Shown piece after piece: positions 22,348 to 22,758 of a DNA stretch of 64,000 nt (position 1 is its first letter; every line of letters starts with the position of its first letter). The translations under genes were made by a program, and so were the position numbers. Origin of the DNA: an uncultured Prevotella sp. GTDB taxonomy: Bacteria; Bacteroidota; Bacteroidia; Bacteroidales; Bacteroidaceae. The stretch lies in assembly GCA_946415755.1 (NCBI GenBank), contig CAMKTS010000007.1, positions 39,459-103,458 on the forward strand, given 5' to 3'. A model generated the notes under the pieces. That model was not told the DNA's origin and ran no database searches. It saw only the letters and a program-made list of their open reading frames with translations.

Positions 22348-22758
22348 AGCCTACATAAGACAAGCTATCTTTCTTATTATCAAATCGTTAATTGATGTAG
22401 GCTGCCTGCATAAGCCTGCATGCAGCCTACAAAATTACTATTTTTGACGAATTATTTACCACAGCTTTTAGTATTTTTATCTATATCAAATTGATTTTCA
22501 GACAGTTCCATAAAAGCAAATTTAGAGGTTACTAACTGTAACCATCGGGGTTACTGTCAGTAACCATGCAGGTTACCATGATAAAGAGCCTACTTACTGA
22601 TGTGAACGTATGCTTTATTTCAATAAACCGATGGTTGGCGAAGAGGGCGAACAAACCTGTTTTTACTCATCTTATGTGGGCTATATGTAGGCTTATGCAG
22701 GCAGCCTACATAAGCTAACTGACTGGAATTACGCAACTTAATTCCAAATATGTAGGCT
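22348..22758. repeat. Nested inverted-repeat region between DUF6078 and vapE
   Basis: TGTAGGCT (or rc) at 22348(-),22396(+),22424(-),22686(+),22703(-),22751(+); perfect 23-bp IR 22395-22417/22689-22711; GGTTAC/GTAACC array 22527-22576. Confidence 0.9.

Follow-up and report, generated by a model that had tools for sequence, protein, structure and literature searches.

A mirrored lattice of genome-specific 10-bp words upstream of vapE in Prevotella, a candidate origin-like assembly site for a VapE-family helicase

In REP/REPIN and RAYT systems, a palindromic element flanks a gene, related elements are dispersed through the same genome, and the word that they carry is genome-specific. The BrickBuilt MITEs of Porphyromonas gingivalis combine terminal inverted repeats with an internal tandem-repeat core (PMC4596501). 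The SaPI Rep helicases and Cch2 recognise the repeats of an origin by their C-terminal domain, and a primase is not fused to every SaPI Rep protein (PMC7581432). Our analysis concerns the gap between two divergent genes, encoding a DUF6078 protein and VapE, in a 64-kb stretch of Prevotella DNA (hereafter the window). Prevotella genomes commonly encode VapE-like (BT4734) proteins, to which we found no function assigned; a search of the open literature likewise returned no published description of the element in the gap.

An initial annotation had drawn attention to six TGTAGGCT sites in this gap, and these are present at 22348(-), 22396(+), 22424(-), 22686(+), 22703(-) and 22751(+), the only such sites in the window, where 1.73 would be expected. 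The GGTTAC/GTAACC hexamer array that it placed at 22527-22576 is there as well, and its view that the gap holds no credible ORF agrees with a comparison across copies of the element, in which no frame stays open. The symmetric region is as it had described, but proves larger, a mirrored element of about 0.5 kb built on a lattice of 10-bp words (Table 1). This lattice is rigid: the left arm has a word (W) at 0, then W inverted at +46 and two more direct copies, at +65 and +76, and is mirrored in the right arm; between the arms lie palindromes of 6-5-6 bp (17 bp), repeated with a 22-bp period. A 48-nt inverted repeat (22387-22434 / 22672-22719, 83%) is nested within the outer 22-nt inverted repeat (22336-22357 / 22749-22770). 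An Rfam search with the element found nothing relevant.

Table 1. Coordinates of the element, its words and the adjoining genes and promoters in the window
Feature	Position	Strand	Remarks
Whole repeat element	22299..22803	.	outer limits approximate, from likeness among 8 copies
Left arm word 1, AGCCTACATA	22348..22357	+	
Left arm word 2, inverted, offset +46	22394..22403	-	
Left arm word 3, offset +65, AGCCTGCATG	22413..22422	+	
Left arm word 4, offset +76, one helical turn past word 3	22424..22433	+	
Central GGTTAC-5-GTAACC palindrome array, 22-bp period	22527..22576	.	
Right arm word mirroring left word 4	22673..22682	-	
Right arm word mirroring left word 3	22684..22693	-	
Right arm word mirroring left word 2	22703..22712	+	
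Right arm word mirroring left word 1	22749..22758	-	
TACCTTTG, Bacteroidota-type -7 box of the vapE promoter, just beyond the element	22820..22827	+	sequence
TACCTTTG, -7 box of the divergent DUF6078 promoter	22282..22289	-	sequence
vapE, 711 aa: BT4734-like primase-related N-terminus and VapE helicase domain	22856..24991	+	
VapE residues 656-711, predicted winged helix; 682, 699, 701 and 704 covary with the word	24821..24988	+	
DUF6078 gene, frequent divergent partner of vapE	21805..22284	-	

An exact search of named genomes for the hairpin of this element gave no match, because it is the word lattice and not the sequence that is conserved. The bare spacing pattern with a TGTAGGC word occurs in 24 places in named genomes, nearly all of them rumen Prevotellaceae/Bacteroidales MAGs. 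We fetched the vapE homologues of the genus with their upstream DNA and scored these for the lattice. Most vapE orthologues in other Prevotella are preceded by the same fixed-spacing lattice (W at 0, inverted at +46, again at +65, with a mirrored right arm and palindromes every 22 bp in the centre) built on a different 10-bp word, such as AAACGTCATA in G007 (a perfect score of 60/60), AGCCATCATA in G071, AACCATCACC in G034, AGCCGTCATA in G082, TACATACATA in G018, and ACTATTCACT in both G081 and G073. This is the recurrence of motif order beside other vapE genes that the initial annotation had suggested looking for. A strict caller with fixed spacing gives a score of at least 50 in 22 of 65 vapE loci, and more loci carry the lattice with spacing altered by ±1 bp or by inspection (G098, G094, the second copy in G218, G008 and G114). 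Locally shuffled upstream DNA scores at most 46 and vapE paralogues of up to 46% identity reach at most 45; one of 177 control windows scored 58, which we take to be an own-genome copy present in the control set. A reversed-sequence control was uninformative, since the lattice is mirror-symmetric. The 22-bp periodicity of the central palindromes is seen across 25 loci, and arm-to-arm distances fall at 326, 337 or 348; this quantisation hints at helical phasing, but a test on the distinct values does not reach significance (p 0.21).

Some loci show further variation. The central palindrome word also switches by genome (GGTTAC, GGGAAC, GGAAAC, AAAACT, AATTCT), with a period of about 22 bp kept. 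G218 has two vapE orthologues (L252 and L247) with different words, of AACCGTCACT and TGTAGGCT type. At L145 (G031) the word array is missing and the DNA directly upstream of vapE resembles the 3' terminus of a group II intron. One contig of 3.8 kb assigned to Pseudobutyrivibrio (L076, CACYLQ010000266.1) has an element of the Prevotella type, flanked as in RUG062, and was probably binned wrongly.

The word varies together with the protein encoded beside it. In 17 loci, VapE residue 699 follows base 6 of the word, Arg going with A and His with T; this rule was recorded as a prediction before new loci were fetched, and 13 of 14 new confident calls agree with it (10/10 strict, 3/4 flexible), the exception being L284. 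Correlating VapE regions with word distance in windows, as a first test, gave no significant result; the per-residue analysis did. An unsupervised mutual-information scan over all residues (6,880 pairs of VapE residue and word base, 25 algorithm-called loci) ranks 682 with base 2 first, 701 with base 10 second and 699 with base 6 third, and 701 with base 9 and 704 with base 5 are also within the top ten. All top three pairs involve residues of the winged helix predicted at the VapE C-terminus, for which a helix at 680-688 and strands at 697-700 and 703-710 are modeled; when words were shuffled among loci, none of 300 shuffles put the top three there, and the top score was never reached. Gln682 accompanies G2 in 13/13 loci and Arg682 accompanies A2 in 6/6. 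A tree built without the winged-helix domain shows six changes of residue 682 and six of base 2, and all four independent pairs on well-supported branches agree, although the sign test has too little power by itself (p 0.125). Direct examples are provided by sister proteins (G340 versus G317, and G082 versus G007). Such covariation strongly supports binding of VapE to the word arrays, and provides a concrete, testable code by which a helicase family would recognise its target DNA. That the region is a designed site of protein-DNA assembly connected with VapE, as the initial annotation proposed, is supported both by recurrence upstream of orthologues and by word bases that covary with the winged helix.

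The element is also dispersed. A DNA search of the window's own genome (G000) finds eight copies on eight contigs, all intergenic and 76-80% identical over most of their length. A random genome-wide scatter of TGTAGGCT, which by the initial annotation would have spoken against its reading, is not what we find: of 48 TATGTAGGCT sites in the 3.0-Mb assembly, 45 lie within these ordered copies. Its idea of a VapE cis site was largely right; it had not foreseen that the site in the gap is one of eight, nor that words switch between species. An alignment of the eight copies, three of them flipped first, places their common ends near TGTGATAGT and ACTTGCACA. All eight score 57-59 of 60 for the lattice, and identity among them is 94% in word columns and 99% in the central hexamers against 74% in the rest of the interior, a contrast that none of 410 mask shifts reached. 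The words are maintained either by selection or by recurrent copying. Several copies lie upstream of genes, and the neighbouring genes have no common theme; the copy at L002 sits between convergent genes, where only a DNA-level role is obvious.

Other genomes show the same dispersal. With seven vapE-linked elements pooled as one query against eight genomes, each has full-length or arm matches essentially in its own genome only (six to seven copies in G007 at 85-95%, three in G071, five by ends in G034, two in G081), and there is no match in G000. Dispersed copies carry the word of their own genome, and the lattice is kept at 53-60 in all but one of 26 rescanned dispersed or vapE-linked copies. 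The copies at L194 1300-2200 (G081) and L193 600-1500 (G007) contain the same outward promoter as precedes vapE, and some copies may therefore drive neighbouring genes. G137 carries three related elements (L010, L014 and L016) with altered spacing and AATTCTCTAGAGAATT palindromes. This genome, which is 89% complete, is without a close vapE orthologue, and this counts against a VapE site.

A short, non-coding, dispersed element with terminal inverted repeats has the features of a MITE, and a transposase-driven MITE is, with a plain operator, one of the two main rivals to the reading that we prefer. The element would then be a non-autonomous transposon moved by an unidentified transposase, its copy beside vapE being one insertion among others and the words being transposase-binding ends. 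The terminal inverted repeats do reach past the words (RUG14617 copies, ATTTTTTTGCCCTC...GAGGGCAAAAAAAT), and the G007 copies, 85-95% identical, stand at unrelated places. However, chance insertion does not place the element upstream of most vapE orthologues with another word each time, and the words covary with VapE rather than with some unknown protein. We saw no target-site duplication at the boundaries examined and, in a non-exhaustive look, no transposase with the same ends, and consider this origin quite unlikely.

The second main rival takes its evidence from position. Most orthologues have 83-103 bp between the right end of the array and vapE, a near-constant distance, and a Bacteroidota -7 box stands between array and gene in the sequences read. 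VapE and/or DUF6078 might then simply repress their own divergent promoters, with the dispersed copies as a regulon, as the copies upstream of genes would allow. Yet the size and two-arm mirror symmetry exceed what an operator needs, one copy lies between convergent genes, the genes beside the copies share no theme, and the probable reader of the words is a helicase with intact Walker motifs (GRQGCGKS and INLDEFD). We hold it unlikely that the element is an operator and nothing else.

The protein itself points to initiators. VapE has a BT4734-like N-terminal domain (PF08800, E 1.5e-34) and matches the PADLOC PrimPol (E 3.5e-30). Its predicted model (mean pLDDT 72, weak in the middle) resembles SaPI5 PriRep1 bound to dsDNA (E 1e-6), and its sequence profile also finds PriRep1 (7pds, E 1.8e-10). 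The primase motifs are degenerate, with LLEVNN in place of hhhDhD/E and SVK in place of SxH; hhhEhN and SxK occur throughout the VapE set, as against the AEP primase consensus of hhhDhD/E and SxH (PMC5862659). This departure makes self-priming doubtful on sequence grounds, but does not exclude VapE from the SaPI/SCC class, given that some SaPI Rep proteins have no fused primase.

A family of elements with a common architecture, linkage to vapE, a genome-specific word and residue-base covariation emerges directly from the computations. Homology of VapE to PriRep1 and the SaPI Rep helicases, taken together with the covariation, leads us to favour, as reasonably probable, the reading of the element as a VapE-specific, origin-like assembly site, the cognate site of VapE. 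Each arm would present three to four 10-bp words to the VapE C-terminal winged helix, physical contact being suggested by the covariation, and the fixed spacing would set VapE subunits in two mirrored assemblies, probably helicase rings that meet head to head. The central 17-bp palindromes probably bind another dimeric protein, for which DUF6078 is a candidate. By analogy with SaPI Rep helicases at iteron origins, the VapE helicase would open the DNA between the arms, and it is the homology that makes unwinding or replication at the element plausible. The vapE-linked copy, just upstream of the vapE promoter, probably also regulates vapE. The other copies would have arisen by duplication around the chromosome, and as they keep words and palindromes, they are probably still VapE targets. 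If so, why does the cell keep eight landing sites for an initiator helicase? A bolder reading, possible but not likely, is that VapE and the arrays are a self-propagating pair, in which VapE unwinds or re-replicates dispersed arrays and so spreads these non-autonomous arrays without a transposase, initiator and word switching specificity together; this would be an undescribed system of Prevotella.

DUF6078 (predicted structure pLDDT 66) often, though not always, accompanies the vapE-element module. In the flanks, about 1.5 kb downstream per locus, no integrase or mobile-element gene recurs beside the module, and the genes downstream differ widely between genomes. In the window, a HipB-HipA type toxin-antitoxin pair (20238-21817; PF01381, PF07804, PF13657) directly adjoins DUF6078, and the block from HipBA through DUF6078 and the element to vapE lies within an apparent polysaccharide biosynthesis region (15835-19333 and 25115-31120); glycan-type genes also border several other vapE loci. 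In Parabacteroides distasonis (L317, NZ_OY725757.1), DUF6078 and a VapE relative are co-directional, beside a type I restriction gene. The Bacteroides finegoldii "plasmid" records with VapE homologues (L316, NZ_OY725909.1) carry ordinary chromosomal-type genes and may be mislabelled pieces of chromosome.

Plasmid iteron arrays titrate Rep proteins, which suggests a further role for the dispersed copies: on the chromosome they might serve as decoys or incompatibility sites and titrate VapE, for instance when VapE-type replicons invade. The copies keep their words, and these differ between species and even between the two vapE genes of G218, as decoys might. However, vapE is chromosomal in the same genome, and we found no close relative of VapE among plasmids or phages, full-length matches being at most 37% identical, so that a decoy function seems very improbable.

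As an initiator with an iteron origin, the preferred reading describes an already known kind of system. Judged by our tools and the open literature, the novelty lies in the rigid lattice with its two arms, a further array of palindromes, the large number of chromosomal copies and an apparently non-mobile setting. The covariation would link a large uncharacterised protein family to origin-like chromosomal sites. With SaPI Rep/PriRep1 and its iteron origin, and likewise SCCmec Cch2, VapE shares a homologous helicase domain, repeated short words beside the gene and, as the covariation suggests for VapE, a C-terminal domain that reads dsDNA. The VapE array differs in lying upstream of its gene, where the SaPI array lies downstream, and in being rigidly mirrored, accompanied by a second palindrome array and dispersed in many chromosomal copies; no mobile-island genes are seen around it, and the VapE primase motifs are degenerate. 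The REP/REPIN and RAYT systems offer the same combination of an element-flanked gene, scattered relatives and a genome-specific word, but RAYT is a Y1 HUH transposase and VapE a primase-helicase relative; no such transposase stands beside our element, whose neighbours are DUF6078 and VapE, and the element itself is a 0.5-kb, fixed multi-site lattice. The BrickBuilt MITEs (PMC4596501) are likewise from Bacteroidota and share inverted repeats at the ends and a core of internal tandem repeats, whereas the VapE element follows a single gene family from species to species, and its switching words covary with VapE.
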